From: Atriophallophorus winterbourni
Lineage: Eukaryota; Platyhelminthes; Trematoda; Plagiorchiida; Microphallidae
Direction of reading: 5' to 3'
Length of the DNA stretch: 64,000 nt
Assembly: GCA_013407085.1 (NCBI GenBank)
Contig: JACCGJ010001294.1
Location: forward strand, 62,001-126,000
Part shown: in pieces, positions 26,756 through 57,411 of the stretch
Layout of the letters: every line of letters starts with the position of its first letter
Numbering within the stretch: position 1 is the first letter of the stretch
Made by a program: the position numbers and the translations under genes
Notes under the pieces: generated by a model
Told to the model about the DNA's origin: nothing
Database searches by the model: none
What the model saw: the letters and a program-made list of their open reading frames with translations, nothing else

Positions 26756-26925
<170 letters not shown>

Positions 26926-36530: not shown

Positions 36531-36810
36531 CATTGTTTTAGCATATATTTATTGACCTGCTACAAGTAAATAGCTATCAGTTATGAAATCGATATTTTTG
36601 CACCCTTCTGAATATATCTTAATCATCTTTATTCTTCTTTCGTGTGGATTTGAATTTGAGTTATCGATCTACTATCTACACTACAAGAATTATTCAATGA
36701 CTTATCGCAAAATATCGGTGTGAATCTGATCTAGAAATCGCAATATTATTTCAGAAATGTCACCTCACGTGGAATGCTATTCGAAAAACAAAACTTACTT
36801 GTCCGCGTGT

Positions 36811-36823
36811 TTACAAACGTGAT
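36811..36823 (-). CDS. MEG candidate terminal exon with stop
   Basis: Acceptor TTTTGCTTTATGCCAG ends at 36824 (minus reading). Following exon 37613-37633 in phase, the frame reads LSRL and then TAA. AATAAA lies about 180 nt downstream (36633-36628). The same acceptor could also serve a 25-nt internal exon ending at a GTAAGT donor (36798-36793), but that would break the frame. Confidence 0.45.
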
Positions 36824-37612
36824 CTGGCATAAAGCAAAATTTACAGTGGGTTATCGTACATCATGCGTTGAAGCGTTAATGAAATTTATTATATCTGATC
36901 AGATTAAAAGTTGTAAAAATTCGAACATTTTGTTGTACGGCGAAACGCATATTTTATATTCGATAGATTGTCTGCCTACTAAGTGATTACATTAGCTTGG
37001 GATCAATCTGTCTTTTTTCCAATACGAAAACCCATAAATATTATAGTAATTCACAATATTCCAAAATTTCCGACGATTTTGCTTGTCATCTCTTTTACTA
37101 TACTCAAATTACTTCATACAGCGGATATGTAGTTAAGTCTAGGACAAACGAAAATATATTTAACCTAACGGGAACACATTATCACATGGATAACTTTTTT
37201 TCCCAAAATTGAGACGAGACATAAAATTTAGTATGTATTGAATCAAAAAATCCTATATAATGCCAATGCCAGATATGAAGTTGAATTGTTTCAAATTTTT
37301 ATCTGTGATTGTTTGAGAATAGTAAAATTCCTTGTGAATTTGCAATCTTGCAGTCGAGCGCACAGTTCTAACCAGCCGAAACTAGGATATAAATTGAGGC
37401 ACTTATCAAACAATGCATAATTTGGATTTATTCTGATGTAATATTTTTATATTTTACATTGAATGCTTATCTCGTTGTTTTTATTCTCAATTACCTACTT
37501 AATTCGATGACTTCATGATACGTTAAACTCGAGTAGTAAGCACGGATGTGTCTGATGCAATTTAAATCTCGAATACGGTATATTGATGGTTTTCGTATAA
37601 CGAATAACTCAC

Positions 37613-37633
37613 AGATGTCGCGTAGCATCTCTC
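37613..37633 (-). CDS. MEG micro-exon, 21 nt
   Basis: Acceptor TGTGTTTTATATCAG, donor GTGAGT. Adds RDATRH plus split codons in phase 2. Confidence 0.75.
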
Positions 37634-37709
37634 CTGATATAAAACACAGAATCGTTCGATTATTATATGAGGTTCAATGTTTTCGGATTACTCGATGAAT
37701 TAAACTTAC

Positions 37710-37730
37710 AATGATCTCATGATCCAACTG
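37710..37730 (-). CDS. MEG micro-exon, 21 nt
   Basis: Acceptor ATTTACTACAAACAG, donor GTAAGT. Adds SWIMRS. A CAGCAG at the acceptor allows an 18-nt alternative. Confidence 0.7.
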
Positions 37731-37821
37731 CTGTTTGTAGTAAATTAAATGTAGTTTATTTAGTTTTGTTTAGGAACACATGTTAAATGTTGATTAAGAA
37801 TGAAGTTTATCAACAACTCAC

Positions 37822-37845
37822 TAATCCTGTTTAGATAGCTGAATA
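37822..37845 (-). CDS. MEG micro-exon, 24 nt
   Basis: Acceptor CATTACAATTTTAG, donor GTGAGT. Adds IQLSKQD. Closed in phase 0, open in phase 2. Confidence 0.7.
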
Positions 37846-38400
37846 CTAAAATTGTAATGAAATTAGGAATTAATTGGTAAAACTCGCCAAGAGTTCCATA
37901 ATAATTTTATTGCAAACTTAAAGATGGCATTCACTACGAAGCATAGTTCATTAGTTAATTTTAAGAGCCTAGTTTTGCTTCGCAAGTATATAGAAAAAAA
38001 TATTTGCGGGAAACGAACACTTGATTGAAATTCTCTCTGTCCCGATTTAAAAATTTTTACACCCGCGCTGCACGAATGATTCATGAAGAAAATCTTTCGA
38101 AAAAGGTAAGTGATTTTTCATCAAACCAAGTGTAGAAATCTTGAACAGGTACATATTTAGGAGATAACCCAATTGATTTAATATAAAAACGCGTGGGTTG
38201 ATTGTCAAGTTGACTCATCAATATTAAATCAAATATCTCACTAAATTCGAATTCTTTTTGCTTGTAATTTAGGGATGCTTCAAAAGCAATTTTATCCAAT
38301 GCATGACAGTATTAGACATGATGAACACAAATATGATGAAAGTAGTTTAATATTATTCAAGCAAATTTCGCACAGTATGTTCATAATTACTGTAACTTAC

Positions 38401-38421
38401 ACTTCATCTGTGCAAATGCAA
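38401..38421 (-). CDS. MEG micro-exon, 21 nt
   Basis: Acceptor TCGATGTATTCCCAAG, donor GTAAGT. Adds CICTDE, the only Cys pair in the micro-exon series. An internal TTGCACAG would give a 7-nt, frame-breaking exon instead. Confidence 0.6.
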
Positions 38422-38539
38422 CTTGGGAATACATCGAAAATTATATTATTAACATTAGATGAGTAATACAGCATATCTATGTATATATATTGATTGTTAT
38501 ATGCACATAGGTTTTTATTATTGTATTCATAATGTATGT

Positions 38540-38586
38540 ATGAATCTATGTATTCATGCATGCATGTATGTATGTATGTATGTATG
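38540..38586. repeat. (ATGT)n-like microsatellite
   Basis: Imperfect ATGT/ATGC repeats in a MEG intron. Confidence 0.9.
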
Positions 38587-38825
38587 ATTGTAAATTTTTA
38601 TACAATTATACATATGCAATTATTCATTTAAATGCAAAATACTGAAAACCATTTTCCGCTTTAAATCTTGACTTCCTGTGTCAAAACAATATTTCTTGGA
38701 GTCTTAATTGATTACCATCATTGATTTTATCCTATAAATTTGGTTTGTTCATACAAACTGTCAATTTAAACGAAAGTTTATTTACGCAGATCAAATATAT
38801 TTTATATTACTGCCAGTTTACTTAC

Positions 38826-38846
38826 GAATCTCGTAAAAAAATTTCA
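38826..38846 (-). CDS. MEG micro-exon, 21 nt
   Basis: Acceptor CATATTTGTTTACAG, donor GTAAGT. Adds EIFLRD. It begins with TGA, so phase 0 is closed, while phase 2 is open. Confidence 0.8.
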
Positions 38847-38925
38847 CTGTAAACAAATATGTGATATTTCACAGTTAATCACGAAATGAAGTTTATCGTG
38901 TATGCAAACAATTTCGAAAACTTAC

Positions 38926-38946
38926 AGTTTCTGTGCGATCAAATAA
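38926..38946 (-). CDS. MEG micro-exon, 21 nt
   Basis: Acceptor TTTTACTTAATCCCAG, donor GTAAGT. Adds YLIAQK. Confidence 0.75.
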
Positions 38947-39146
38947 CTGGGATTAAGTAAAACAGATTTAAATGAATATCAATATATAAATAACGATAAT
39001 AAAAAGCGTAGCGGAGCATTTTTGATGGGCAATATCACAAAGAAGGCAATTCCACCGGTATGATTTCTTGTTCCAAGGATTTTGATAGGTGAATATTTAA
39101 GATAAATTTTAAAAAGCAGATTTCAAAATCACCATCTGGACGTTAC

Positions 39147-39152
39147 TGTATT
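39147..39152 (-). CDS. Possible MEG micro-exon, 6 nt
   Basis: Acceptor ATACCGTTTTTAG, donor GTAACG. Six-base exons occur in known MEGs, but so short a match can arise by chance. Confidence 0.25.
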
Positions 39153-39499
39153 CTAAAAACGGTATACGTACTCAATTTAAGCAGAGGTTTTATGAAGAGC
39201 CTTTTCAAAATCATTATTAAAAATGTGCAAGTGTAGTGGATTCGAAACCGAACCTTAATATTCGTATTGGAACATTATATTTGCTTTGCCACCTTGTTAT
39301 CACTGGATTGATTGACACTCGATTATACTGAGTGTCTCACATTTCTGCTGCATCATGTAGCATTACTGCTCAAAAAGGTCGATTGTATATCCCCAATGGC
39401 ACGGAATTTAACAGTAATCTTGAGAATAAATGGCACATATATAAATGCATTTATGCGTCAAATAGGTTTCAGTAATTTATGTCAAACACGGTTTCAATA

Positions 39500-39640
39500 A
39501 AACATAAACATACATTATCATGTGTTGCTCACATCCACCGACATTGCACTACACTACCGGTTTCTGGCTGTTTGCCGTCATCAGGTGGAAACAGTAAGAT
39601 TAACATCAGTGAGCCTTGAAACAGTGGATAAATGTACACA
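39500..39640 (-). repeat. Dispersed repeat with hammerhead-like core, best copy
   Basis: On the minus strand: CCACTGTTTCAAGGCTCAC, then TCCAC, core CTGATGA (39584-39578), a GGC/GCC helix II with an A-rich loop, and GAAAC (39564-39560). After about 18 nt comes GTC followed by GGTGGA, which can pair with TCCACC. It lies in a MEG intron. Other copies are at 11351-12000, 43900-44330 and 55550-55650. Confidence 0.5.
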
Positions 39641-39790
39641 CTGGTAAATACATCAATTATTCGTAATGTTAAAATGTGACATTCTTTATTCTCGATGTTA
39701 CACTCTACCAGCTAGAGCTGCTTCTTTCTGCTGGATTCGATTATTGATAGTGGTTCTGCGCAGATGAAAAAATATCAATTAAAACATTAC

Positions 39791-39811
39791 TTGTTCCTCC
39801 GATAAACATTT
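39791..39811 (-). CDS. MEG micro-exon, 21 nt (weaker)
   Basis: Acceptor ACATTTATAAAATGAG, donor GTAATG. Both sites are weaker than in the other exons. Adds NVYRRN in phase 2. Confidence 0.45.
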
Positions 39812-39874
39812 CTCATTTTATAAATGTAATATAGCTAACCCGAATTCTAATTATAATGTTATGTTGGAACTCAC

Positions 39875-39895
39875 AGATAATTTCCCAAACCGAAG
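39875..39895 (-). CDS. MEG micro-exon, 21 nt
   Basis: Acceptor GCTATTGAATTAAAAG, donor GTGAGT. Adds FGLGNY. Confidence 0.65.
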
Positions 39896-40335
39896 CTTTT
39901 AATTCAATAGCGAAAAATGCATTAGTCAGGCAAAGTATTGCTAATAAAATATTTTAGGTATGTTTGAGTTATTATTCTGTCTATGTCAAAAGATTACATG
40001 ATACGAAATACGTTTATTTACCCTGAATTTCAATGTAACAATTACGGTAAGTCGGCCTTTAATAAAGTAAAGCTCCAACGTTTAACATGTCATATATTTC
40101 GCGGAATATATTTCCTTTATGCCTGGGAGGTATGTGATGAAATGTCACGCAAATGAGGACATTTTCTTCATCCAATTTTGTTCAGTAAGCAACACATCAT
40201 TTTTAAAACAATTCCGCTATTGAACAGTGATAGATATACGTTTACATCATTCCACTATTCGAGTTTTCAACGATTTGAGGTTGAAATGTTATTACTTTAC
40301 AACAACACCTCCAAATATTGAAGTAATGAATTTCA

Positions 40336-40432
40336 GGCGGTAACGGAAGCAGCGGCAGACCGGAACCACTGTCGTGGGGTTGTCTTCTCCTCATGTGCCA
40401 CCCGGCACGGAGAGGACTGAGTGAGTGAGTGA
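40336..40432 (+). mobile_element. RTE-like LINE, tail-only copy
   Basis: About 97 bp matching the 3' end of the RTE copy at 2513-3345 (from CGGTAACGGAAGCAGCGG to CACGGAGAGGACT). It ends in (TGAG)n, a microsatellite-type tail typical of RTE elements. It is an extreme 5' truncation in a MEG intron. Confidence 0.85.
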
Positions 40433-40739
40433 TAGCAATTACGGTTAACAGTGACTCGACGAACAATACATAAGCTAGAAATACAATAAAATAAGATATG
40501 TCGAAGTGTCGCTTTCCCAATATACTCTTAAATCAATTGTCATAGTAGATTCTTTCGGTAGCCACAATTCTATAGACAAGAATAATTTAGCGCCGCATCC
40601 TCATTTGGGTAATGTCACCTAAACCTAGACTTTGCATTCAAGCGGTTTACGGAAAATCGCAAAAAACATAGGTAACTTTGTTGCGCTGTGTTATACTATA
40701 TTGGAGAAAGCTATATACTCTGCCTTTCGATATACATTC

Positions 40740-42400
40740 TGGCAGTGAACCTTGCTATTCAGGATTCCACTTATCAATAATTGAATGGTCATTCACGAAC
40801 CCAGCCCCTTAAGGAGTTACTGTTTATAAGTCGGTATGTCAAAGACATGATTTGGCAAATGTGGAGCATATTGCGTTTACGTGTGTTTGATGTCATATCA
40901 TTTAGAGCATCAACGAATAGAATAAAATTTGACGACATGAGAATGTGGTTAATAATGTATAAATATGAGAATATGAAGCGGAAATAGCACAGATCCGCGT
41001 GAAACTCCGCAGTATTCTTATTTGAAAGCACTCCATTTACTCTTGTGTGGCGATTTGACAACTAGAAACACAACCACTATTGAAGTGTATCACAGAATGT
41101 TAAACCTTCAAGCTTCTGACAAAGTAGATGGTGTTTGACTCTGTTAAAAGATCTGGAATTCTCCAAGTAACAAGCGTGAATGCAATTATATCTATTCAAC
41201 TCACTCTTCCAGTCGTTAAATGCGCGGGTGGCAGTGTGGATGAGCTCCCACTGCTTTCTTATGGCGCAAGTCTTAAATAGCCTCTTACAACCAAGTCCAG
41301 CTACTGGCCTGCACGAGTGGCTCCCCGAACTCGGCGAAATTGCTTCTACGAACACGAGAAGTGGTGATGGCGAGTGACTGGCTTCTGAAAATCAGTTTCC
41401 TCCGGGCAGATTGAGATCGTTAGCCTGGAAGGGATTTCATCTAAGTGAAGGAAAAGCCTGATTTTAACCTCGCTAACTTACGGGATACCCGATCGCGGGA
41501 AATGATCCGGGAGAAAACCCTGATGGGAAAATCTAGAGCAGTGTCTCGTATACGTTTAGTTGGTACACACCACTTCTTTCTGGCAAGTCCCTGCTGCCTT
41601 GCAGATCGCACTTTGTTGTGCAGAGGTTAGAGAAGCTGACTGGAACAAACGCCCAGTCGTGACTGGGGACTCCGCTTTGCAACCAAATTCCTGAGACTCT
41701 TCATTGAAGCTGATTCTTCCTCCAGAAGAAGATATTCGCACGAAAGTAAATTGAAGTGATATTGAAATCCATTCTGCGATGCCGTAAACAATTAACGCAT
41801 TTCAAATTTTGAGACCATTCTTTTTGAGGCTATACTATCTAAGACATTACCAATTAAAGGTATAAGTATGACGGCACGATAATTTCCAGTGTCAGCTCGG
41901 CAGCCGCTTTGAAGATAGGTGTAATCTTGCCGGATTTCTATTATTTTGTTGCCACTTCCTTGAGCAATGTATAATTAAGCTTGCTGGAAAGCAGTTCACT
42001 TAGCTGACAATGACTGCACCTAAGGCCTATTGGTGGGATGCCATCCAAACCTGCGGAGTTTCGTACATTCTGTTTAACCAGTTAAACAGTGGCAATCACT
42101 CTATGTATCAACATGTTTCCCGAAGTCTAGATTCCTAAGTCACCGGAATACCACAACGTTCCACTGAAAATTTTGTCACCAAAACTTCAGAGTAATAAAT
42201 TGCGAGAAACTTCGAGGTTTCCAAAGCGGCAACAGCAAGATTTTCACCATTTTGTATGGCGAAAATATCTTGTTTGATCTTTGCTCACGTGTTCACGATT
42301 TTGTATAGTTTCTTACAGCTGCCTATCAATTTCGACAGCAGCATCAATTGGTGCGATTCTTCATACTTTGGAATAAGGTTAATGTCATGGTTTTGATTCT
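40740..42400 (-). mobile_element. CR1-like reverse transcriptase, split by another element
   Basis: Read down the minus strand: NVRNSAGLDGIPPIGLR (42070-42010), GKITPIFKA (41930), GNYRAVILIPLIGNVLDSI (41890-41830). After an interruption (about 41764-41256) come WELIHTATRAFNDWKSELNRYNCIHACYLENSRSFNRV and FILFVDALND in place of the FADD motif (about 40920). All RT motifs are in order but frame-broken. Confidence 0.7.
41256..41764 (+). mobile_element. GC-rich insertion, possible family C leader
   Basis: It interrupts the CR1-like RT. Its layout resembles the family C leader near 13690-13800: GGCGA..GACTGGCTTCTGAAAATCAG, TCCGGGCAG, and a GAAGGAAAAGCCT block. The similarity is patchy, so the assignment is tentative. 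Confidence 0.4.
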
Positions 42401-42659
42401 TAAGTAATTGATTCTAAGTAATGGGAATATTCTTAGCTTTAGGCTGCATCCACGCTACTCGCTTCAGTATTATTCACTTGGTTGTTCAGCTGCAAATAAC
42501 AAAAAGCAGTTTCCGTTGGTATTTTTGAAAAGATTTGCGAGTTCTCGTCAGTATTCAGTTTCTCAATCGCTTGAAATTACGTTCAATAAACAACACAGAA
42601 TTCACCCTCGAGGAAGAACTTGGTTGGTGTTTAAATGCTAAATTCTGGTGAAACTTGTA
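42401..42659. other. No gene seen
   Basis: A 77-codon plus-strand open stretch here (42408-42641) shows no motif. Confidence 0.3.
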
Positions 42660-43030
42660 TTAATGGTGTGGTCTACCGCCCCAATTAATCTACTGAATCA
42701 CACAGCGGAATGTTGATCTAAGTGATAAAGTGCTTGACTCACACTCATCAAGCAACAATATTTATTGTATGTGATTGTACCTTGCCTACACTTTATCTCA
42801 GGGACGATCACAACCCATAAACGATCCAAATTGGATTTAGACATGCATTAATTTGCGTCTCCATATACAATCGTGTTAACGAATGTACTCATTGAACAGC
42901 TTATGATCACCTCTCCGTGTTGGATTTGGTGATAAATCAAAAGGACAATTTGTCGGAGCAACCACTCCACTGATTCTCAGTGACTATTCAGTACTGTATT
43001 TCGACTTTGTATGCATTACTCAAACCTCGC
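42660..43030 (+). mobile_element. CR1-like endonuclease fragment
   Basis: NGVVYRPN, then FIVCDCTLPTLYLRDDHNP (GDFNLP motif altered), SIYNRVNECTH and SVLDLVINQKDN, all family E-like endonuclease blocks, on the plus strand and so opposite to the neighbouring RT. Stops interrupt it. Confidence 0.6.
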
Positions 43031-43899
43031 TTGCTATGAACGGGGTAGTTTGCGGGGAAGATAAATTTGACCATATTGGACACTGGTGCAGATTTTACCG
43101 TTGTCGGATTAATTACATAAAACCTGATTCGGAATAATTATTACTGCTTACTGAGTGCTAGTCAAGCGCTAAAGCAATTGGATCAATTTTTCGTTAAATT
43201 TATGCGAACAAGCGACCATGTAGCAAACAAGCGCCTCTACACAACTTTAACGCACAAACATTTCATTTACATTAACTTTTGATTTACCCTATTTATACCT
43301 ATGGCATTTCAGAATGTGAATATTGGCTTTCTACGTCTCCCGACTATAGTCATTAATCGTAATTCAATCTGTACCCCGTCCGACCAAGTTTTGATTTGAA
43401 CCCACATGACAAAACGTACCTATAGCAGGAACTTCCAATCAAAGCCACAGAACACACTCTTTTGATCTCTTTCTTCTTTTAATTTACTAACATACCTCGT
43501 CACTCATCGACTCGTTTAAACTTCCATTTCTAACATTAGGGGAACTAAACTCATTGTGTGCCCAAGCAAAACTTCAGCCTTCAGTCGATCTATCGCTGGT
43601 CTACTAAAACCACATAAATAATTCAAACTGGATATCTCTACCGTAATCATTTGAGTAGAATACCATGTTGCTGTAAGGTGCAAGGATATTTTCATCAATT
43701 CTACCAATATGTTTGACAGTCTGATCTTTTTACATATAAATCTAATAAAGTATGTCGTGTTCGCGGATGTCATCCGTGGCCAACCATAAATTGGATCCTA
43801 AAACGTTGTGCAAACATGAATCCCTTTTTTTACGATGATCAAAATGAATGTAGGCAAATATTGAAGTTAACCGTGAAAATTATTTGTAGATTGAACAAT
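43031..43899. other. Unassigned
   Basis: Intronic AT-rich sequence. A minus-strand open stretch (43773-43516) shows no motif. Confidence 0.4.
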
Positions 43900-44330
43900 T
43901 TGGGCATGTATGCCACTGTTGGACAAGGTTGGTAAACCCAACCTGTTCAATCAATTGAGCACACACTCATGTAGACAGGGTTTGCACGCATGACCTCGAA
44001 CGAACAAGCTTATTTGCCTGCATTTCCATCGTGCACTCCATGACCGTTTATGTTCTGTTTGCAATTATCAGGTAGGGACTATAGAGATCATAATCCGCAA
44101 GCGCTTGAAACCGTGAAAGAATGATAAAAATTTGCCCTTTGTGTTTGCATACATACAAACCTTATTCAACAGTGGCATCATGTTTACCAGTCTGCCACTG
44201 TTTCAAGCACATGTAGAACATGATAGTACTGCCAATATCTGAGGAGTGTAAACAGCACGAAACCTGTCGTGGTGTGTGTGTGATGGAAATGCATATAAAT
44301 GATCTTATTCCGACATTACTTGATGCCAGT
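43900..44330 (+). repeat. Dispersed repeat with hammerhead-like core
   Basis: Carries CCACTGTT twice (43918, 44200). Then CTGAGGA (44239-44245), a GTG/CAC helix, GAAAC (44259-44263) and GTC soon after. Core bases fit CTGANGA...GAAA, but no helix I partner was found. Confidence 0.45.
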
Positions 44331-44591
44331 ATATCGCAGATGGAATCGGGTTAGCTGTATCAAATCTTGTAATTACAGGAATTGACAACACATTTGTTGA
44401 CAAATGCAAAATATCCCATTTTGTCGAAACAGTATGTACACAAAAATATCGAGTTGTTAAGATTCATTTGAAATGCTTTGCATGGGTTGATCAAAACATA
44501 TTAGCCGTTCGTAGCATTAGTGAATTGACTTTCGAAAGAAGCTAATTTTGAGAATGAAGTAAATACTCAATGAAAAAAAATGTTGACTCAC

Positions 44592-44615
44592 ATATTCAAT
44601 TCATCATGTTTATTG
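44592..44615 (-). CDS. MEG micro-exon, 24 nt
   Basis: Acceptor TTCATAATGCTTTTAG, donor GTGAGT. Stops close phases 0 and 1, and only phase 2 is open. Adds NKHDELN. Confidence 0.8.
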
Positions 44616-45851
44616 CTAAAAGCATTATGAAAAAATCGGTAGTTGAAAGATAGTATACCTCTGTATTAAAAACTAATTTCCACGAACGTTCATTCTCAGA
44701 TATTTTTATGATTATTATTTTTTTGGTTTGAAATATTGAAACTGTTGTTCACACACTGCATTTTATTCCCGGAAGATGAACATAATGTTAGAGTACTTCG
44801 AAACTATTCTTCAAATTATGAATGAGTATTGAAAATATACAGTTAATCATGACACAATTCATCTACGAAACCTAATCTTAAAAATCAGTAGTTCCGAAAA
44901 TAAAATTGCAATAATATTTTCTGTTATTTCTGTATATCCATTAACAGTTCCGTCCGTAGAATTGCCTGAAAACTTTCATTGTCAATAAAAGCTAATTTAC
45001 CATCAGTGCTCATTATATAATTCACATTTTTAAATTATCAAATACTGGGTTTGTTTTGCCTAGTCGGTAAAATTTCAGATGGACACTAAACCAATATGAT
45101 ATGAAAAATCAACCAAGTTGAACATTTGCTAATTCTCTCTACAAAATCCGTTGTATTTGGATGACGCTGGTAGACAGAACCAAAGCGATCTCGTAAGTGA
45201 AGCTGAGACTATCAATCCGAACAGATTTATGAAATATTAGCCTATGATATAATTGAAATATTTTCACGAAAATTTGCTCGAGTAAAAGAAAAGTCGTGTT
45301 CTACTTATTCCAATTAATATTATCCTGTTTGATCTTCATATTAAGGTCTCACTCTGTGAATAATTTATCCAGGTGACCTTTTGTTCAAAATATATTTATT
45401 GTTGACACGTTCAAAAAATAGAATACTTTTATGAATAAAAATACATCTGACGACGAAATTTCACACGTATATTGTTCATTTCCGTTGAGTCCGCAATGAA
45501 TCAGAATCTTAGCGAAAACCCAAAAATACTATCATTCCAAGCAACCTGCCATCCTGTTTAATCGGATCACAAATTCTAATGATTTCTGGAGTTTCGCTGC
45601 AGAAGCAAAAGTTTCCTGGATATCTGGTATAAATTGCGCAAGTGCTATTAATATGACAAATTTACCTCAACTTTAAAATACAATTTTGTAATGCGAATTT
45701 CCGTCGAGCTCGATAAATGGGAAGAATCTTATCTAACTGTTCAGATTATATAAAAGTTCAGAACAAATGTTAAAACAAACCATTTTAACTAATTTTTAAA
45801 AAAAGTAAGAAACATTACTTTCGAAAAATGTTATTGAAAATATAATCTTAC

Positions 45852-45869
45852 ATGTACCCACGAGTCAAG
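45852..45869 (-). CDS. MEG micro-exon, 18 nt
   Basis: Acceptor CTATTTTACGCAAG, donor GTAAGA. Phase 1 is closed. Adds LTRGY in phase 2. Confidence 0.7.
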
Positions 45870-46195: not shown

Positions 46196-46245
46196 AACGC
46201 ATACTAATACTAATACTAATACTAATACTTATACTAATACTTGCT
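46196..46245. repeat. (ACTAAT)n hexamer repeat
   Basis: Seven imperfect units in a MEG intron. Confidence 0.9.
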
Positions 46246-46777: not shown

Positions 46778-46795
46778 CCAGAATATTTCCACAAC
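46778..46795 (-). CDS. MEG micro-exon, 18 nt
   Basis: Acceptor TTATTTTTTATACTAG, donor GTAAGC. Adds LWKYS. Confidence 0.8.
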
Positions 46796-47828: not shown

Positions 47829-47849
47829 TTGTGCAATTCCGATTTAATG
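47829..47849 (-). CDS. MEG micro-exon, 21 nt
   Basis: Acceptor TTCTCTGTTTACAG, donor GTGAGT. Phase 0 is closed. Adds IKSELH. Confidence 0.85.
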
Positions 47850-48184
47850 CTGTAAACAGAGAATATAATTAGTTTCAAAAATTCAACCAACTTTTCGATA
47901 AGGTTGGCACGAACAAATTTACAATTACTGATGACCACTCACGTTGTGCCTGTGGTCATTATGTTTAATGTATGTGAAAATTTCACGATACATTTTTAAA
48001 GCGTTTTTGATTTATTTTGGCGACGTTTGTTGTTGAAATGTTTTACGTGAAGATTGAAGATAAGCCCATGATTTATTATAACGAGTTTGCTATATATACC
48101 ATTTACGGTGAATATTTATCGGTTATTTATAATAGAAATTGTAGAATGAAAGGTAGATGTGGATGGATGAAATTGGATACTCAC

Positions 48185-48205
48185 AGTGTATTCTGCTTTT
48201 TCATT
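48185..48205 (-). CDS. MEG micro-exon, 21 nt
   Basis: Acceptor GATATTTTCCAG, donor GTGAGT. Adds MKKQNT. Confidence 0.8.
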
Positions 48206-48383
48206 CTGGAAAATATCGTTGAAATAGTTCAACAATTAATCAACGATGAATTAGATTAAATTTTCTTTCCAAGTCTGCTATTAATTGTTTATTTGCGTTC
48301 GACTTCGAATATTAGAAATTTTTATGATCATTTATCTAGGTACATTATCAATAATATTTAATTACTGCAACTAAGAAACTCAC

Positions 48384-48404
48384 AATTTCGAATTTTCGTT
48401 TTCG
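48384..48404 (-). CDS. MEG micro-exon, 21 nt
   Basis: Acceptor GTACACATAACACAG, donor GTGAGT. Adds ENENSK. Confidence 0.8.
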
Positions 48405-48496
48405 CTGTGTTATGTGTACAAAAGTGTGGAGAAAATATATAAAAAGTTGTTACATCATTTTGTATTGTAATTTCACAGGAAATTGTGTACACTTAC

Positions 48497-48517
48497 GTGG
48501 TTGCGTTCTGAGAAAAT
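48497..48517 (-). CDS. MEG micro-exon, 21 nt
   Basis: Acceptor TTTCCAGATTTTCAG, donor GTAAGT. Adds FSQNAT, with an N-glycosylation sequon completed by the next exon's residue order (N-A-T). A second AG inside would give an 11-nt, frame-breaking form. Confidence 0.7.
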
Positions 48518-48590
48518 CTGAAAATCTGGAAATGCATTAACTAATCCAGAACGAAGTATCTTATTTTAATATAGTGAATAATTGAGTTAC

Positions 48591-48611
48591 CGTTTATAAA
48601 GTTCCTCAATT
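48591..48611 (-). CDS. MEG micro-exon, 21 nt
   Basis: Acceptor TTTTCTCTTACAG, donor GTAACT. Phase 0 is closed. Adds IEELYK. Confidence 0.75.
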
Positions 48612-48921
48612 CTGTAAGAGAAAATTAATTAAAGCATACATTATTTGCGAAATACTTATGTGAATCAAGAACACATTACTGGGTTTCGAAATAACAGTGT
48701 AAATAGGAAACAGATATTCGTTGAATTCACATGACATCCTATTCAGCAACAAATAATTATGTTTGCTCTGAATCGATACATTTTTGTACATTTATGTATT
48801 TTCTTTCACTCCCTCATCTATCCATGTTTAAGAGAAATTTTAACTGCTGATCTGAAGACTAATAAAAGATCATGATATTCGAACATTTCGGTATGATTGA
48901 ATTCCACGAAATGAAACTCAC

Positions 48922-48942
48922 TGCGCATCTTCCACCGTCAAT
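48922..48942 (-). CDS. MEG micro-exon, 21 nt
   Basis: Acceptor TATTCTATTCTAG, donor GTGAGT. Phase 1 is closed. Adds LTVEDA in phase 2. Confidence 0.85.
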
Positions 48943-49407
48943 CTAGAATAGAATAAACAAAAAAGCAGAATTATTTTATGCAGTGCAGATTTATTCTAAA
49001 GTGCCAAAGTTTCGGTAGATTTTAATAATATTTTTTCTGTGAGGAACATTTGATTCAAACTATCTAACTTTAAAATTTCAAATATAAATTTCAAGTTACG
49101 GAAATTTTGAATCCGGTGGTATACAAATTTGAATTCAATTGAACTGCGGTTATTCGTGCGCTGGTTGTAGCAAGATTTCATGCGATAATTTGCAGTGTCT
49201 ACTCTCGTACACAGGAAAGAGCAACCCGGTTTTTGATTTACCATATAGTAAGCCGTGCAACGTTTGGTATTATCTCCACGTCATAACATGCAAGAATCGT
49301 GTAAATATTGGGTAACAATTGCGGTACATTCAGATGAGCACAAATTTGTCACTTGATAACAAGTTGAAATTGACAAGCAAAATAAGAGAGTTCAAATAGT
49401 AACTCAC

Positions 49408-49425
49408 ATATCTGAATTTCGGGTA
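49408..49425 (-). CDS. MEG micro-exon, 18 nt
   Basis: Acceptor GTTCCACCCACAG, donor GTGAGT. Adds TRNSD. Confidence 0.8.
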
Positions 49426-49623
49426 CTGTGGGTGGAACGGAAAAAGATTAATTTAAGCTATTTTGTAGTCGAATGTCTATAAGTGATCATTTGTATGTCT
49501 TAATAATTCCATTATAGTAAATATACAATATGTTGCGGGATGATTTCGCAAAAAAAAATTGCTGGGTATGACTGGGTCCGAAAATATCAACAAATTATGA
49601 TTAGCGATTTGACAATAACTCAC

Positions 49624-49644
49624 ATATCATACAACTTCGCTTTC
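49624..49644 (-). CDS. MEG micro-exon, 21 nt
   Basis: Acceptor AATCTGTTTTCAG, donor GTGAGT. Phase 0 is closed, and phase 1 would create TGA after the upstream exon. Adds KAKLYD in phase 2. Confidence 0.85.
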
Positions 49645-49990
49645 CTGAAAACAGATTAGACAAATAAAGTAAAATTGCTTATCTAGTGCTTATTCGGGAA
49701 ACACAAGTGATATAGAAATTAACTGAAATGTGATTATTACCGAAACATTTGGACCATAAAAGTTCATAATATAAACTGAGTTCCATGAGCGATTCAAAAT
49801 ATGAAATATCCGGAACAATATAAAAACATAAACGTTTGAAAAAATCAAATAAATCGTTCATATACATTCAATATGCTGATTGAGTTTTGTCACTCCTCTT
49901 ACGTTGATTTTCATTTCTTTATCTATCCATCCACAAAGCGGTGTATCTAACAACCTGTCTATTTTTAGATACAATTATGATACAATTTGG

Positions 49991-52772
49991 AACGTTACCC
50001 ATAAACTACTCTCACCGATTCATTACAAACTTTATTTTTTCATGATTATGATTCCACGATTGGTCACAAACATTTTACATCCCATTGCTGACTCTCACGA
50101 ACCACGAGTTCGCAAATTGGCCAGCGAGTTGGTACGAACAGCTCAAGTAGAAGCCAGATGGACGAATCATCCCGTCATTAACCTGAGATGTCAACAGGAC
50201 AAAGTCATGAAATGGGATCTGGTGGTCACACCTCCAGATATTTCACGCAATTCGAGAAAGACTGCCTAAACCGCATCCAATGTTTTTTCTAAAACAAAGG
50301 ATCCACAGGGCCAACGAAAACCTGACACACGCGTGTGCGAAAGCCTCCAGGTTGAAGTCCGAATTGCGAGCAGAGTTATCTGATGTGGATTTCTGCAACA
50401 TCTGTGGAAACACGCCGAGGTCTTGGCCACACAGACGGAGCAAATTAGAGAGAAACAGAAACGTAAGTTTGCCACTCTTTTGACATCTAAAGATAAAAGT
50501 AATTCTACTAGTTCTTTTGATAACAGTGCTAAACAATATTCTAAAGTAATTAACTTTTCAGATCGGCCGCTTTCGCAGACCGAACAAAGATGGTTAAAAA
50601 ATGGTTTTAACTTCTCATTAAGTACGAAGGTCTTAAAACCTGAAGATTTCATTCAATGCATAGAATCTACTTAAACTCAGCTACCGGAAACACAGGCAGA
50701 CGCACTATGAAACTGTATAGCCAGTATTATTAAGAAACAACAGCCAGAAAGGTGTAACATTACGCAAGATAAACAGCGAGCATTTCCTAATCTGCGGAAA
50801 GAAGAGGGAATAGTGATCTCTAGAGCCGATAAAGGCAAGGCCACGGTGATACTCTCAAAAAGTGATTATAGAAAGAAGGTTGAATCACACTTTGCTGAAG
50901 GTCCTTATGAAGTTATTGACAGCAAGAGAACCACGTCGATTACTAATAACCGTCAGCGGGTGATTTCCAGATGCTTGCATGGAATTGAGGAGGTACTTGG
51001 TCATGGATTATGGTTCAGGCTATATCCGAAATCTGCTGCGACCCCTAGGTTCTACTGGTTCTCAAAAATACATAAGGTGGGCGTTCCTCTGCGACCTATT
51101 GTGGATGGCGTTGGATCACCAATACACGAATTAGCAGAGCATCTCGCTCATTTTTTGAAACCGCTAGTCGAGAACAAGGATTATCTCATTGAGAACTCCT
51201 TTGATTTCGTTCGACGTTCGAGTTTGATAACGCTCGACGAAATTGAGGTGATGGTTAGCTTCGATGTAGGTGCCTTGTTCACGAATGTGGACACCACGAG
51301 CGCTCTAGAATTAGCAAAAAATGCACTCAATTCAGACGCGACATTGACAGATAGTACAAACTTGAGTTTACAGCAAATCCTCAACAGTATAGCGATTTGT
51401 CTGAATCTGAACCACTTTTGTTTAACGGACAGTTATACAAGCAGAAGGGAGGTTTAGCGATGGGTTCACCTATTTCCCCAGGGTTAGCGGATATGTACAT
51501 GGAGCATTTTGAAGAGTTAGCTATAAAAAATGTAGCTCTTCGGCCAAAGATATAGTGGGGTAATGTCGATGATACATTCGTCATCATGAAACGTGATAGA
51601 TTAGAAGCATTCCATAGTTACCTTAAAAATTTGGATCTAAATATCCAAGTTACAAAGGAGATTTAGTCGATAGAGTGGACACTTCCATTCTTGAAATGTC
51701 TCTCGCGAAAGTAGAATGGTGAAATATGCACTACGGTCTATCGTAAGCCAATCGACACAGATGCGGTCTTGCGGTACCCATCAGCGCACTCCCAGAAGGT
51801 ATTCAATTCAGTTGCGAAATTGCTATTCTACAAAGTTGAACGCTTGTGCAGCGATGCTACCGATAAAAAGCGAGCACATTAAGAAGTTAATCGTCGACTC
51901 GATGATCATGGTTACACTGAGAGCCTAATTGAACGCCAACTGAAACGGGTTAAATACCCAGCACCCAAAACGGAAAAGTTTGGCGTGCAAAAGTTTCTAT
52001 ACCTTACGGTAAGGAAGCTTCATAGGGGATTCTTCGAATCTTGAATAACGCAGGTATACGAGTAATTCATGAAAGGGGTAGAACACTCAGATCCTTATTA
52101 ACGCATCTCACGGATAAAACATCTTCAGTCAGTGCGACGAATCGCGTATATAAAATCAACTGCAAAGGTTGCTCATGAGTATATATCGGGCAAACATCCA
52201 GAGAACTCAGTACTAGGATGAGTGAACACAAAAATCGAAATGATAAGCAGCCAGGCAATTCCAGTGAATATCAATCACTGATAAGAGATTCAGCACTAGC
52301 TGAACACGTGCTGGACACAGGTCACAGCGTTGATCTCGACAACGTAAAAGTGATAAGGCGGGGAATAAAACCATACATCGAAAGACTTCACGCTGAGGCG
52401 GTTGAGATAACAAAGGCTGGTAATAATGCAGTCAATAAGGTGGATGGGGCTGATATCTCCACAATCTGGCGTCCGGTTCTGCAGCGGATAAACATTAACA
52501 TGCGTCACCCCTTGTGCGCGCACCGAACTAATCGGTCAGCAGATGTTATTCACACCTGCAAAGACTAGAACCATTAAGGAATTATACGGCACGTAGGGGT
52601 GGTGGTGCGTCAGTTGATATTGAACGCGCCTGTCCTTTTTAACCAGCGCAGAACCTAGCATGGACTGTGCAGTTCTTAACCAGCTTATGATTGGTCAGGC
52701 GTATGCAATTTAAGCTTGATCTCTGTTCGTACTGACACCCTTGGTCTGACGAAGCTTCTGTGTCAGAAGCGA
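49991..52772 (+). mobile_element. Penelope-like element 1 (PLE-1), copy 1
   Basis: A near full-length PLE on the plus strand, antisense to the MEG and inside one of its introns. It begins abruptly at AACGTTACCC, inside what is the hammerhead motif in copy 2. N-terminal domain, reverse transcriptase and GIY-YIG endonuclease follow, then a 3' region ending at the hammerhead that joins copy 2. It carries several stops and frameshifts. Confidence 0.85.
50100..52568 (+). pseudogene. PLE-1 RT with GIY-YIG endonuclease, copy 1
   Basis: The N-terminal domain includes ATQTEQIREKQKRKFATLL and LSQTEQRWLKNGFNFSLS. RT blocks: ISRADKGKATVILSKSDY, LWFRLYPKSAATPRFYWFSKIHKVGVPLRPIVDG, EVMVSFDVGALFTNV and a frameshift at 51457 (G.AMGSP.SP region). 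Near 51545-51600 VDDTFVIMK-like text marks the catalytic YVDD region, out of frame. The end (52140-52470) has INCKGC followed by a stop, VYIGQTSRELSTRMSEHKNR, and LAEHVLDTGHS. That is a GIY-YIG nuclease with the YIG.T.R..R..EH signature and a Cys pair before it. It would cut DNA and prime reverse transcription, but it is inactive here. Confidence 0.85.
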
Positions 52773-52781
52773 AACGTTACC
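52743..52781 (+). ncRNA. Minimal hammerhead ribozyme at the PLE-1 copy junction
   Basis: Core CTGACGA (52746-52752), then a perfect 7-bp helix II GCTTCTG/CAGAAGC with a TGT loop (52754-52770), GAAAC (52771-52775) and GTT (52776-52778). GGT (52743-52745) pairs with ACC (52779-52781) as helix I. Predicted cleavage is after 52778. Helix III has no intramolecular stem, but ACGT is self-complementary, fitting the dimeric minimal hammerheads described in PLEs. Confidence 0.8.
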
Positions 52782-54167
52782 CATAAACTACTCTCACCGA
52801 TTCATTACAAATTTTATTTTTTCATGATTATGATTCCTCGATCGGTGACAAACATTTTCCATTACATTGCTGACTCTTACGAACCACGAGTTCGCAAATT
52901 GTCCAGCGAGTTGGTACGAACAGCTCAAGTAGAAGCCAGATGGACGAATCATGCCGTCTTTAACCTGAGATGTCAACAGGACGAAGTCAAAGAATGTGAT
53001 CTGGTGGTCACACCTCCATATAATTCACGCAATTCAAGGAAGACTGCTTGAACCGAATCCAAAGTTTTTATAAAACAGAGGATCCACAGGGCCAACGAAA
53101 ACCTGACACATGCGTGTTCGAAAGCCTCCAGGTTGAAGTCAGAATTGCGAGCAGAGTTATCTGATGTGGATTTCTGCAACATCTGTGGAAAACACGCCGA
53201 GGTCTTGGCCACACAGACGGAGCAAATTAGAGAGGAACAGAAACGTAATTTCGCCACTCTTTTAACATCTAAAGATGAAAGTAATTCTACTAGTTCTTTT
53301 GATAACAGTGCTAAACAATATTCTAAAGTAATTAACTTTTCAGATAGGTCGCTCTCGCAGACCGAACAAAGATTGTTAGAGAAAGGTTCAAAATTCTCAC
53401 TAAGTAAAAAGGTCTTAAAACCTGAAGATATCATTCCATGCGTAGAATCTACTTTAACTCAGCTACCGGAAACACAGGCGGACGCACTACGAAACTGCAT
53501 AGCCAGTATTATTGAGAAACAACAGCCAGAAAGGTGTAACATTACGCAAGATAAACAGCGAGCTTTTCCTAATCTGCGGAAAGAAGAGGGAATAGTGATC
53601 TCTAGAGCCGATGAAGGCAAGGCCACGGTGATACTCTCAGAAAGTGATTATAGAAAGAAGGTTTAATCACACCTTGCTGAAGGTCCCTATGAAGTTATTG
53701 ACAGCAGGAGAACCACGTCGATTATGAATAACCGTAAGCGGGTGATTGAAAGATACTTGCGTCGAATTAAGGTGGAACTTGGTCATGGGTTATGGTTCAG
53801 GCTATACTCGAAATCTGCTGAGACCCCTATGTTCTACTGGCTCCCAAAGATACATAAGGTAGGCGTCCCTCTGCGACCCATTGTGGATGGCATTGGACCT
53901 CAAATACACGAACTAGCGAAGCATCTCGCTCATTTTTTGAAATCGCTAGTCGAGAACAGGGATTATTTCATTGAGAACTCTTTTATTCCGTTTGACTTTT
54001 GAGTGCAATAACGCTCGACGAAGATGAGATAATGGTTAGCTTCGATGTAGCTGCCTTGTTCACGAATGTGGACACCATGAGCTCTCTAGAATTAGCAAAA
54101 AATGCATTTAAATCGCGACATTGACAAATCGTACAAACTTGAGTGTACAGCAAATCGTCAACGGTAT
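52773..54167 (+). mobile_element. PLE-1 copy 2, 3'-truncated, head-to-tail with copy 1
   Basis: Starts where copy 1 ends, with the same AACGTTACCCATAAAC. It repeats the N-terminal domain and RT up to the LSVQQIVNGIAI block and then stops short of the catalytic motif and nuclease. Sequence identity with copy 1 is high, so the pair is fairly young or was homogenised. Confidence 0.85.
53133..54002 (+). pseudogene. PLE-1 RT, copy 2 (partial)
   Basis: Open 53133-53666 and 53724-54002 in related frames. It begins ELSDVDFCNICGKHAEVLATQ, holds SRADEGKATVILSESDYRKKV followed by TAA (53664-53666), then FYWLPKIHKVGVPLRPIVDGIG, and ends SFIPFDF. Compared with copy 1 it keeps LPKIHK where copy 1 has FSKIHK, and Glu replaces Lys in the ADKG motif. 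Confidence 0.85.
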
Positions 54168-54215
54168 AGCGATTATGATTACCCGATCGGTCACAGAGAT
54201 TTTCCATTACAATTT
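54168..54215 (+). mobile_element. PLE-1 5' leader stub (third partial copy)
   Basis: GATTATGATTACCCGATCGG and the following bases match the leader of copy 2 near 52825-52860 and of copy 1 near 50042. The leader is therefore fused directly onto the truncated RT of copy 2. Confidence 0.65.
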
Positions 54216-54396
54216 GATTGCATTCTACGTAGTTAATCAACTTCAGACCAAAAATTTAGATCAGACGAGAGGCAAAATTATCAAGATTTATATGTATTCA
54301 TTTCGATTTTGGAAATAAAATCGTATTGCAAAGCATTTATCTCCAGATCTCTGACTTCAAGGTGTACACTAAATACGAGCATATGTTGCAACTCAC

Positions 54397-54417
54397 ATTG
54401 TATTCCATTTTTGAAGG
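54397..54417 (-). CDS. MEG micro-exon, 21 nt
   Basis: Acceptor GCTTCAACTGCAG, donor GTGAGT. Adds LQKWNT. Confidence 0.8.
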
Positions 54418-54853
54418 CTGCAGTTGAAGCGTGAGACTATGGTACTTGTAATTTGTAACTAAGCATGCGAAAATGACGATGACTTCTTTACGAAAAATGT
54501 GGTGAAGCATAAAATTAGAGAACTTTCTTTTTAATATTGATTTCAGCGGATTAGTTTTTGTGTCTGGCATGTCAACAATTCCTATTCATTATTATTGTTA
54601 TAGGAAACGAATAATCCTTTTGATAAAAAGTACATCATTCTAAAAACTGTAATTTTATAAAAGTGAAACATTATCTGTTCATTGATTACCAATGTCCTTC
54701 TTAATGTTATCCTTATTCATAATTTTCTCGTTACAACTACTCAGTGTTTATATGAAGCGTTTATCAAAGTAACGATTACAAATAATTCATTGTCATTTTT
54801 CATTGCAGCTTAATAAATGATTTTATTGACGCCAACAGTGCTTTTGTCATCAC

Positions 54854-54868
54854 ATGTTCTTAAATAAA
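54854..54868 (-). CDS. Possible MEG micro-exon, 15 nt
   Basis: Acceptor GAATTTTATGCGCAG is good, donor GTGATG is weak. Adds LFKN and stays open in phase 2. It may be skipped or not real. Confidence 0.3.
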
Positions 54869-55289
54869 CTGCGCATAAAATTCGTATATCTTTGTGTATG
54901 AATTCGTTCGCTAAATTATTTTGCAATCTATAATAATACCGATTCGAAAACTTGAATTTGCTTCATATGCCATATAACAAAAGCATATTGACCTTCGTTG
55001 TTCAAATCGAAAGTACTCATTGAGATTTCGCGAAATAATTAGTTTAACTTTTGTTTCAATTCGCACGGCAAAAAATTTTCTTGCTTGGCATTAACTTGAC
55101 TGATTTTCTACAGCGGAAATAATGTAATCGAGGGGAAAATTATATACGTATAAGATAAGTTATCGGAAGTGGAATATCTCTTGTTATAAAATGTGTTAAA
55201 TTAAATGGTGTGAGCATTAAGATTCTGTTTGCTATTGTCACGTTGAACTTGTTGCCCATCTGTTGTTTAAAATAATGTTGACTGTCGGA

Positions 55290-55346
55290 TCAGTATATAT
55301 ATATATATATAGAGAAGAGAGAAGGGATCAGTATATATATATATAT

Positions 55347-55378
<32 letters not shown>
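55290..55378. repeat. (TA)n tract with local duplication
   Basis: GGATCAGTATATATATATAT occurs at about 55288 and 55326, separated by an AGAGAAGAGAGAAG spacer. A longer TA run follows. Confidence 0.9.
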
Positions 55379-55381
<3 letters not shown>

Positions 55382-55427
55382 CGATACAGAAATCATTGAA
55401 ACCGAAATTAAATTACGGCTGACTTAC

Positions 55428-55448
55428 AATTCGTGTTGAAGTGTAATA
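55428..55448 (-). CDS. MEG micro-exon, 21 nt
   Basis: Acceptor ATTTATTTCCAG, donor GTAAGT. Adds ITLQHE. Confidence 0.85.
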
Positions 55449-55549
55449 CTGGAAATAAATAATGGTAAATAAATGAAGATTGGGAGATTGGTTTTCTTAA
55501 GTTTACTTTAAAACATATGCTTCATCAGCTTTATGTTTAAACTATAACA

Positions 55550-55650
55550 CTATGTCAAGGCTCAGAGAAGCTTATCCTACTGTCTCAACCGGACAACAGC
55601 AATCCACCAGATACCGGTAGTGTAAAATAAATTGAATGTGAGCACCACGA
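55550..55650 (+). repeat. Dispersed repeat, very degenerate copy
   Basis: GTCAAGGCTCAG and AGATACCGGTAGTGT align with the repeat at 39500-39640. The hammerhead core is lost. Confidence 0.4.
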
Positions 55651-55903
55651 CATATGAAGATTTTACCAATCCGATACAAAAAATCGTGCATGCTCAACAT
55701 TTATCTTTTTGCAGTAAAACGCGAGATGGCCTTGATAGAACGAACAATAGCAGCTCCGGATATGATACTCATGAGAAATTAGAATTAGGAATATTATGAA
55801 CATAATTATGAATAGCACTGAGAGAATTATTTCCGTACTGAAAGAGAATAAAAATGAATCTCAATGAATTTCGTTAAAACAAATAACACATTTTACGACA
55901 TAC

Positions 55904-55924
55904 AACTCTTTACGTAATTCAAAT
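55904..55924 (-). CDS. MEG micro-exon, 21 nt
   Basis: Acceptor TGTTTTTTCACAG, donor GTATGT. Phase 0 is closed. Adds FELRKE. Confidence 0.8.
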
Positions 55925-56394
55925 CTGTGAAAAAACATTTGAACGTAATTAGTTGATGAATATGAACGCATCTTGTCATTTCAATCCTCAAGGTTGTTAG
56001 CTATAATTGACAAAAAATATATTCAAATATCAATAATGAAAAATTATTAATTTTATTATTCAAACAGTGTTTATTAGTGTACAGCAAATTAGAATTCCAT
56101 GGCTGACGATGTATGCATATCGTTGATATTTTAATATAGCCGACAATGGTTTTTGCACTTCATCTTCGAAAACATAGTTACAATATACAAAGCCATCATA
56201 AAAAACGTTTATTTGCAGATGTTTAACAATTTTGTTCTTCACAATTTTTCAACTAATTATAGACTACAAGAAAATAGACTTTTTGATTTATCTAAACAAC
56301 TACTCATTCTACCGATAAAGCTTTATCTTATATATCTTTATTAATTCACATGATGTACATGAAGCAGACCTAAACAAACATTTGTAACATATAC

Positions 56395-56424
56395 CGTTTT
56401 CATATATAGCCAACATTGGTCGCC
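56395..56424 (-). CDS. Candidate 30-nt MEG exon, frame conflict
   Basis: Acceptor CACCTGCATATCTAG and donor GTATATG are both good. It is open directly after exon 1 (phase 1: RPMLAIYEN), but in phase 2, used by all later exons, it contains TGA. It could be an alternative exon or a non-functional relic. Confidence 0.4.
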
Positions 56425-56553
56425 CTAGATATGCAGGTGTGAGAAATGTTTCCGAATATTGTATGCTAGTTCAAATTTCCTTATTGAAATTCTGGAAAAA
56501 ATTTCATACACCAATATTCATTTCAAATATGAAAAACCAAAACAATTTCTTAC

Positions 56554-56572
56554 TGAATGCTTTGATGAATAT
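56554..56572 (-). CDS. MEG exon 2, 19 nt
   Basis: Acceptor TTCATAATAATTAG, donor GTAAGA. Its length (one more than a multiple of three) moves the frame from phase 1, as left by exon 1, to phase 2, as needed by all micro-exons. It adds DIHQSI. This fit is the main reason to accept it. Confidence 0.55.
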
Positions 56573-56769
56573 CTAATTATTATGAATCTCAAAATCAAAT
56601 TTAAATTTTTGGCAAATCACAAAACTATCACAGAAATGTTTTCTAGCGGAATCTCATTCGAGTTAGATCAACTCGATCTTATTTGCAATTAATAAAAAGC
56701 ACAGCGATTTTATGGAATTGAACATTCTTTGAAGTCGCACATACTTTGTTGGTGCTCCAGTGGCTGTAA

Positions 56770-57411
56770 GAAACAGACAAATAAAAATAATTATATTATC
56801 AAAATGTTTGGAGTCACTATTTTTTATGAATTTCTACCACTCACCGACAATTAGAATGGCACACAATGCGGATACAATGTTGAGCTTGAGCATGCTGAAT
56901 TTAATATTACGATTGTAAGAGTTATGTTGGGTGATTTTATCACAGATTTTATACTGTTCAGTTGACCTTAAATTGCAAAATATGTGAAAAACGTGAAAAA
57001 CTGTGCGTAGATGTGCGGGGGGCATGACCAAATATGGTCGTAAAAATTTTGTTTTCAAACATATAGGTGTGCACCATTTAAACACGGTAAAGTACAATTT
57101 GCAATGACGTTTCTCAAGGAACTTTGTTTTCCCCAAAAACATTGAAGTAAAAACAATATTTAATTGCTGTATTGAATAACCAATCGCAATAAAGAAAACC
57201 AGAAAACATTGAAGAAAATTTGTTTGACATAAATGCATTATTTACTTAACATATTTGAACCAATGTGGAACACCTCGCAGACACGCAGCGCTTAAAGAAA
57301 ATAAAACGAAAAATTGGACGCTCTGCTTTTGTGCTAGTCTATTATAGGAACTTAATGTTCCGTGTATAAAATTAGAGCCTTTCTTATTAATATAAAAACG
57401 ATTATTTACTT
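56770..57411 (-). repeat. Duplicated MEG 5' block, copy B (empty site)
   Basis: Paralogue of 1-618. It runs straight into 57412 onward without the 7.3-kb insertion, giving the pre-insertion state of that locus. Confidence 0.8.
56845..56893 (-). CDS. MEG exon 1 (signal peptide), copy B
   Basis: ATG at 56893-56891, MLKLNIVSALCAILIV and one extra base before a GTGAGT donor (56844-56839). The hydrophobic core and length suit a cleavable signal peptide directing the product into the secretory pathway. It is conserved with copy A (74-122), including phase and donor. The frame upstream of the ATG is short and shared by both copies, so the ATG is the likely start. About 400 bp upstream are also conserved and should contain the promoter, but I saw no clear TATA or initiator. 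Confidence 0.75.

Follow-up and report, generated by a model that had tools for sequence, protein, structure and literature searches.

Micro-exon gene (MEG) families of schistosomes are the closest described systems to the locus reported here. The Schistosoma mansoni superfamily is described as 35 genes with a signal peptide and mostly symmetric micro-exons, mostly of 15 bp, with 10-20 exons and introns of 0.1-5 kb in schistosome MEGs (PMC10526429). Of the 33 micro-exons counted in the novel MEGs 26-32, which lie between two longer flanking exons, 26 are symmetric (PMC4671649). Schistosome MEGs also show species-specific duplication, transposon enrichment and a ratio of nonsynonymous to synonymous change (dN/dS) that is higher for mature sequence than for signal peptide; the class is said to be restricted to platyhelminths (PMC4350168), and members are reported from Trichobilharzia besides Schistosoma (PMC6362228, PMC5825161). 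We analyzed 64,000 nucleotides of the trematode Atriophallophorus winterbourni (assembly GCA_013407085.1, contig JACCGJ010001294.1, positions 62,001 to 126,000; hereafter the window), in which the minus strand of positions 36628-56893 holds a locus that we call gene A. With a probability of about 0.9, we read gene A as a predicted MEG-type gene whose 24 small exons would together encode a 172-residue secreted protein, likely in contact with the host, and whose compared exons differ more between sister copies than its introns do.

Judged from its sequence, the family to which gene A belongs is MEG-type by architecture, and we keep it apart from the S. mansoni MEG sequence superfamily, the nearest MEGs having been compared by description and by N-terminal motifs. 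The two share a 5' signal peptide, putative in the family described here, coding sequence mostly in small symmetric exons, introns of up to about 5 kb and clustered duplicates, as well as a fast-changing mature part next to a quieter signal peptide (PMC4350168). The family described here differs in that its micro-exons are mostly 21 nt rather than 15 and 21 symmetric ones share one phase, in having 24 exons instead of 10-20, in forming one family of about 30 loci and in lacking the published N-terminal motifs. As for the longer flanking exons of the class, the coding parts here are 49 nt (E1) and 13 nt (E24), with untranslated region (UTR) lengths inferred from a TATA box and an AATAAA signal. 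The genome falls among the flatworms, and within them among the trematodes, because the trematode eggshell family PF08034 has six matches in it and none in 14 control genomes. A literature search, whose reach did not extend to the founding MEG paper (PMC2909574), turned up no publication that treats this family or MEG modules of 21 nt.

Exon architecture of gene A and its relatives

Within 36628-56893, we searched for AG followed by 18, 21 or 24 bases and GTRAGT. The minus strand has 17 distinct GTRAGT donors with an AG at one of these distances upstream, and the plus strand has none. A chance-permutation test had been proposed in a preliminary description of this DNA, and its outcome favors a real pattern: 1,000 dinucleotide shuffles of the region gave a mean of 1.23 such intervals and a maximum of 6. 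The same offset, with the first exon base as third codon base, is open in all 17 strict intervals, a result that base shuffling within exons reproduced in only 6 of 20,000 runs. Between 36000 and 57500, 19 pairs of acceptor and donor enclose 6-45 nt on the minus strand; 12 of these span 21 nt, and no comparable length peak occurs elsewhere in the 64 kb. At a generic, hand-set splice score of 13, intervals of 15-27 nt comprise 14 multiples of three and two of other lengths on the minus strand. That these intervals are chance splice-like matches in AT-rich DNA, as the plus strand might suggest with 11 intervals of 15-27 nt in multiples of three at score 8 (one at score 13), is rejected as vanishingly improbable by the shuffles, none of which reaches 17, by the 24 exons kept in two paralogues and by the open frame of 175 of 175 exon instances across copies.

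Exons were chosen by combining the strict pattern, a score trained on the strict exons, the generic score and paralogue support. The resulting minus-strand model consists of a signal-peptide exon (E1), a 19-nt exon (E2), micro-exons E3-E23 and a terminal exon (E24). Upstream stands TATAAAA, the likely core promoter (56947-56953), which also occurs in paralogues B and C. E1 (56845-56893) carries the ATG and encodes MLKLNIVSALCAILIV in 49 coding nt, ending in phase 1, and recurs in B and C; E2 (56745-56763), backed by the trained score and present in B and C, passes from phase 1 to phase 2. Ten strict exons have counterparts in the paralogues: E4 (55428-55448), E5 (54397-54417), E17 (39875-39895), E18 (38926-38946), E19 (38826-38846, unlike B at 13 of 21 bases), E20 (38401-38421, taken as 15 nt in B and C with the acceptor 6 nt apart), E22 (37710-37730) and E23 (37613-37633), all of 21 nt, and E16 (44592-44615) and E21 (37822-37845), of 24 nt. 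Seven more strict exons recur in the wider set of family copies, namely the 18-nt E7 (49408-49425) and the 21-nt E6 (49624-49644), E8 (48922-48942), E10 (48497-48517), E11 (48384-48404), E12 (48185-48205) and E13 (47829-47849). Four exons with weaker donors complete the series: E9 (48591-48611, 21 nt, donor GTAACT), by trained score and family copies, and, by scores and paralogues, E3 (55904-55924, 21 nt), E14 (46778-46795, 18 nt, donor GTAAGC) and E15 (45852-45869, 18 nt here but 24 nt in B and other copies). E24 (36628-36823) begins with 13 coding nt (36823-36811) that encode LSRL and a stop, identical in A, B and C, and likely continues as 3' UTR to AATAAA at 36633-36628.

The 21 exons E3-E23 share one phase; 16 are 21 nt long, three 18 and two 24. 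Micro-exons, taken as exons shorter than 36 nt, make up 457 of 519 coding nt (88%), and 21 of the 22 are symmetric. The generic score is at least 9 in 19 of the 21 phase-2 exons; E17 and E21 fall below it and nevertheless have GTGAGT donors and counterparts in B and C. Intron lengths range from 73 to 4,752 nt. T is the last exon base before 14 of gene A's 23 donors and, over E6-E13 in 12 copies, in 42 of 96 cases, so that the split codon is often NTN and hydrophobic; the T may be driven by the needs of the protein or of splicing. One further passable interval, 52737-52757, was left out because it sits at the margin of intron 5's duplicated insert, belongs to a stretch that recurs at 7367-7516 and faces introns of only about 0.8 kb in B and C.

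These results both support and amend the preliminary description. Its signal-peptide exon (56893-56845) and its implied terminal exon with AATAAA (36633-36628) were recovered, and so was its count of 13 intervals closed in another phase: 13 of our 21 are closed in at least one other phase, and all are open in phase 2. Its pattern of at least 22 intervals of 18, 21 or 24 nt holds as a pattern but not as a count, as we find 21 plus the 19-nt E2; the interval 52737-52757 may be the extra one. The statement that all lengths are multiples of three applies to E3-E23, E2 having 19 nt, and the expected product of about 179 residues becomes one of 172.

Gene A is not alone. Comparison of the window with itself revealed a second occurrence of promoter and E1 at the left end, where E1 of a tandem paralogue, B, lies at 74-122 on the minus strand, the other B exons lying left of the window on the same contig. 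Paralogues B (about 45.1-62.1 kb) and C (about 178.2-190.6 kb) share contig (C1146) and strand with gene A; each has 24 exons with all borders AG and GT, shares the final coding exon and keeps an open frame, of 172 and 170 residues, respectively. We then covered the genome (537 Mb in 15,840 contigs). The E6-E13 stretch matched 55 pieces, grouped into 30 loci on 24 contigs with gene A included, and the promoter with E1 matched 26 places. Eight locus pairs differ by less than 3% and may be alleles or assembly duplicates; because some loci are this close, distinct genes must be fewer than 30, with at least 15 over E8-E13.

Twenty-four of the 30 loci were read exon by exon, leaving out C12705, C8839, C6248, C12796, C11665 and C14131 near 21.6 kb. 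Among them, 175 of 192 possible E6-E13 exon instances were covered and aligned singly. The predicted offset is open in all 175, the other two offsets meet stops in 67 and 70, and the borders carry AG in every case and GT in all but one, which has GC. The exon series itself varies: E9 is doubled in copy C6961_118k (L033, 4534-4828), the two versions about 250 bases apart and each open with its own splice sites; a 21-nt exon follows E13 by about 1.1 kb in all five second-clade loci scanned; and E14 was not recognized in the seven second-clade loci compared. Inside gene A, no exon-to-exon similarity that would betray recent exon duplication appeared beyond overlapping flanks. What the DNA establishes is thus a predicted architecture, its repetition in two full paralogues and partly at about 30 loci, conservation of frame and E6-E13 exons free of indels. 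The hidden minus-strand MEG-type gene of the preliminary description is borne out by the non-chance pattern, by the two full 24-exon paralogues and by a frame and, over E6-E13, an exon length kept while introns gain indels; its presentation as a single gene is not, as it is one of about 30 loci. Segments upstream of gene A also recur in the window at 73-86% identity (7921-10729 with 57397-59541, and 25286-26617 with 59478-61103), probably left behind when a segmental duplication produced the tandem genes.

Divergence of exons and introns

Rates were compared over E6-E13 in 12 distinct copies, namely the 18 complete ones minus six that differ by less than 3%; the other six of the 24 loci are incomplete or interrupted. 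Exon divergence exceeds intron divergence in all 66 pairs, with mean p-distances of 0.258 and 0.171. In 100,000 draws, no set of eight random intron windows reached the exon mean. Within the columns that gene A contains, gaps occupy 0 of 1,980 exon cells and 485 of 17,664 intron cells. Codon positions 1, 2 and 3 diverge by 0.289, 0.254 and 0.231, and dN/dS pooled over all pairs is 1.13. Single exons range from 0.364 (E7) to 0.162 (E13).

The 12 of these 66 pairs with intron divergence below 10%, which are not independent of one another, give a nonsynonymous proportion (pN) of 0.173 and a synonymous proportion (pS) of 0.090, the latter close to the intron value of 0.073, and a pooled dN/dS of 2.06. 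A codon bootstrap places pN/pS between 1.16 and 3.80, with 0.7% of replicates at or below 1, and in six non-overlapping close pairs pN lies above both pS and intron divergence every time. Among A, B and C, skipping exons of unequal length (E15 and E20 in A-B, E20 in A-C and E15 in B-C), dN/dS over micro-exons E3-E23 is 1.55, 1.51 and 2.02 for A-B, A-C and B-C, respectively, with intron flanks differing by 0.14-0.17. The second half is faster still: E14-E23 give 2.29, 1.96 and 3.52. The signal-peptide part, E1-E2, gives 0.58, 0.53 and 0.70, on few changes (3 to 8 a pair). In the predicted mature part, then, nonsynonymous change exceeds synonymous or intron change, and no such excess is seen in the signal peptide. 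We interpret this pattern in the copies as diversifying selection on the predicted mature protein, with the greatest strength in the second half of that protein and between recent copies.

A decaying or unconstrained family of pseudogenes, with exons drifting freely, would also have high nonsynonymous change and might lose exons, as the unrecognizable E14 of seven second-clade loci could suggest. We consider this very improbable: the E6-E13 exon cells are gap-free and the 175 exon instances stop-free, splice sites and signal peptide are kept, and a pN of 1.87-2.90 times intron divergence in close pairs is beyond what drift can give. Exons that change faster than introns are known from animal toxin families, in which introns and signal peptide are conserved and the mature exons are hypervariable. 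The likeness to gene A and its copies is one of description and takes in all these traits; toxin exons differ in being of ordinary size.

Several observations weigh against the interpretation of gene A set out above. E15 and E20 vary in length between copies. When the comparison is limited to E8-E13, where 15 of 21 copies are distinct, exons are the more divergent part in 94 of 105 pairs only, and pooled dN/dS is 0.92. E13 diverges like introns (46% of intron windows reach it) and E10 hardly more (19%), and dN/dS over E3-E13 is near 1 in A-B, A-C and B-C (1.03, 1.19 and 1.10). On the side of the protein, helical periodicity in the 95-109 degree band is not significant over E6-E13 (p 0.39), and the published N-terminal MEG motifs are matched by none of the three models A, B and C; the motifs compared were FL-phi-phi-F-X6-W-p-(K/H/R) and FxxLFL(I/R)(V/D/E)Fxx(D/E), with residue classes set by us.

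The predicted protein and its relation to known MEGs

The predicted product begins with a hydrophobic N-terminus that is conserved in A, B and C and was judged by eye to be a signal peptide. Over E6-E13, hydrophobic columns are less variable than polar ones (entropy 0.71 over 17 columns against 1.28 over 33, p 0.006), and in gene A 19 of 21 exons have a hydrophobic residue at exon position 1 or 2 (within-exon shuffle, p 0.0003). A heptad or coiled-coil reading of the 21-nt exons was rejected, the 3.5-residue period being not significant in gene A (p 0.73); a periodicity scan of gene A shows a candidate peak at 104 degrees. Among periodic and positional patterns, only the hydrophobic exon start survives testing.

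Searches with the gene A model identified no relative. A protein database search returned none among 53 candidates at E values up to 10, a null that is uninformative because a control search with an eggshell protein of the same genome also found none among 26 candidates at E values up to 0.001; the database seems to lack this clade. Pfam gave three families at E values of 0.089-0.12, all below the cut-off, and the Protein Data Bank (PDB) gave no match.

The hydrophobic exon starts bear on what the variation might be for. The genes could be real micro-exon genes engaged in an arms race with a molecular target, for example host-cell membranes or receptors, rather than with immune recognition. 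Besides the starts themselves, the amphipathic MEG peptides reported for schistosome oesophageal glands (PMC4671649, PMC5825161) would fit this idea, and the absence of a significant helical period speaks against it. On balance, we regard a molecular target as unlikely, though not by a wide stretch.

Direct descent from a known schistosome MEG family, diverged beyond recognition and not independently built, has better prospects. Phase-2 borders, a signal peptide and symmetric exons, together with exon duplication and a mature part of high dN/dS, are all reported as traits of schistosome MEGs (PMC5825161, PMC4350168). Two of these likenesses are specific: the terminal exon of MEG-8 and MEG-9 starts in phase 2, its first base being the third codon base (PMC5825161), and Schistosoma MEG-3 is described with intragenic exon duplication (PMC4350168), comparable to the doubled E9 in one copy here. 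The last exon of MEG-8 and MEG-9 differs in encoding a conserved C-terminal motif (PMC5825161), where ours encodes LSRL only. Set against descent are the unmatched N-terminal motifs in A, B and C and exon sizes, given as mostly 15 bp in S. mansoni (PMC10526429) and 21 nt in 16 of 21 exons here. We hold such an origin to be a tentative possibility, with chances somewhat short of even.

Genomic setting and proposed role of the family

Intron 5 of gene A holds a duplicated, retroelement-like insert on the plus strand (49991-54174), with copies at 49991-51397 and 52773-54174 that are 91% identical; the matching introns of B and C, at only about 0.8 kb, are too short for it. An open reading frame (ORF) of the insert, 52179-52568, carries YIGQTSRELSTRMSEHKNRN, a motif from which we presume the element to be Penelope-like, and Pfam gave no family for three of the insert's ORFs. 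Pieces of non-LTR (long terminal repeat) retrotransposons lie at 1486-2253 on the minus strand and 19062-22799 on the plus strand, with RVT_1 and Exo_endo_phos_2 matches in Pfam. A long pyrimidine-rich simple repeat (26750-28146) adjoins a run of N, of which the window holds 1,000 in total, and Rfam and tRNA scans of the window returned no matches. Elsewhere in the genome, the eggshell PF08034 genes (L001-L004; contigs C11415 and C15748) have four of their six matches on one contig, C11415. For two glutathione S-transferase (GST) exons, the best-scoring chains are 28-kDa GSTs (53.6 and 48.5 bits; 33 of 74 and 30 of 72 residues identical), with chain 2wb9 lower (41.4 and 27.9 bits); we take the former chains to be from Schistosoma and the latter from Fasciola. 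Identity this low points away from the genus Schistosoma, but may also come from paralogues that have diverged. Searching with GST_N added just two matches, which fall at the loci of a third GST_C match and were left out of the comparison.

Returning to gene A as a MEG-type gene, a course of events can be proposed from its sequence. Transcription would start from the TATA promoter, and the 24 exons would be joined in the listed order, with the strong GTGAGT and GTAAGT donors helping to define exons too short for ordinary exon definition. The hydrophobic N-terminal stretch would then send the protein to secretion and into contact with the host. With 21 of 22 micro-exons sharing one phase and a length divisible by three, skipping or doubling of exons could leave the frame intact and yield variant proteins. 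Gene duplication, exon turnover and possibly exon skipping, combined with selection, may in this way keep the proteins changing in the face of host recognition or of host targets that vary, as has been proposed for schistosome MEGs.

In its broadest form, this proposal sees an animal parasite with a modular, combinatorial way of producing protein variants: in a trematode outside Schistosoma, one MEG-type family with about 30 loci would build its secreted protein from about 21 interchangeable, mostly seven-residue modules, each one exon in one phase, with selection changing the modules at two to three times the rate of the introns and mostly preserving their length and hydrophobic starts. We put this forward at just under even odds. 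MEGs escape ordinary gene finders, and the comparison of paralogues suggests that they can be found, and given strong coding support, from DNA alone without RNA. In a family this large, the introns would serve as a built-in neutral clock, so that diversifying selection can be located, and its strength measured, for each exon. Should splicing variants exist, the parasite would be varying one secreted protein through gene duplication, exon turnover and exon choice together, and the long-standing question of what MEGs are for would become directly testable.

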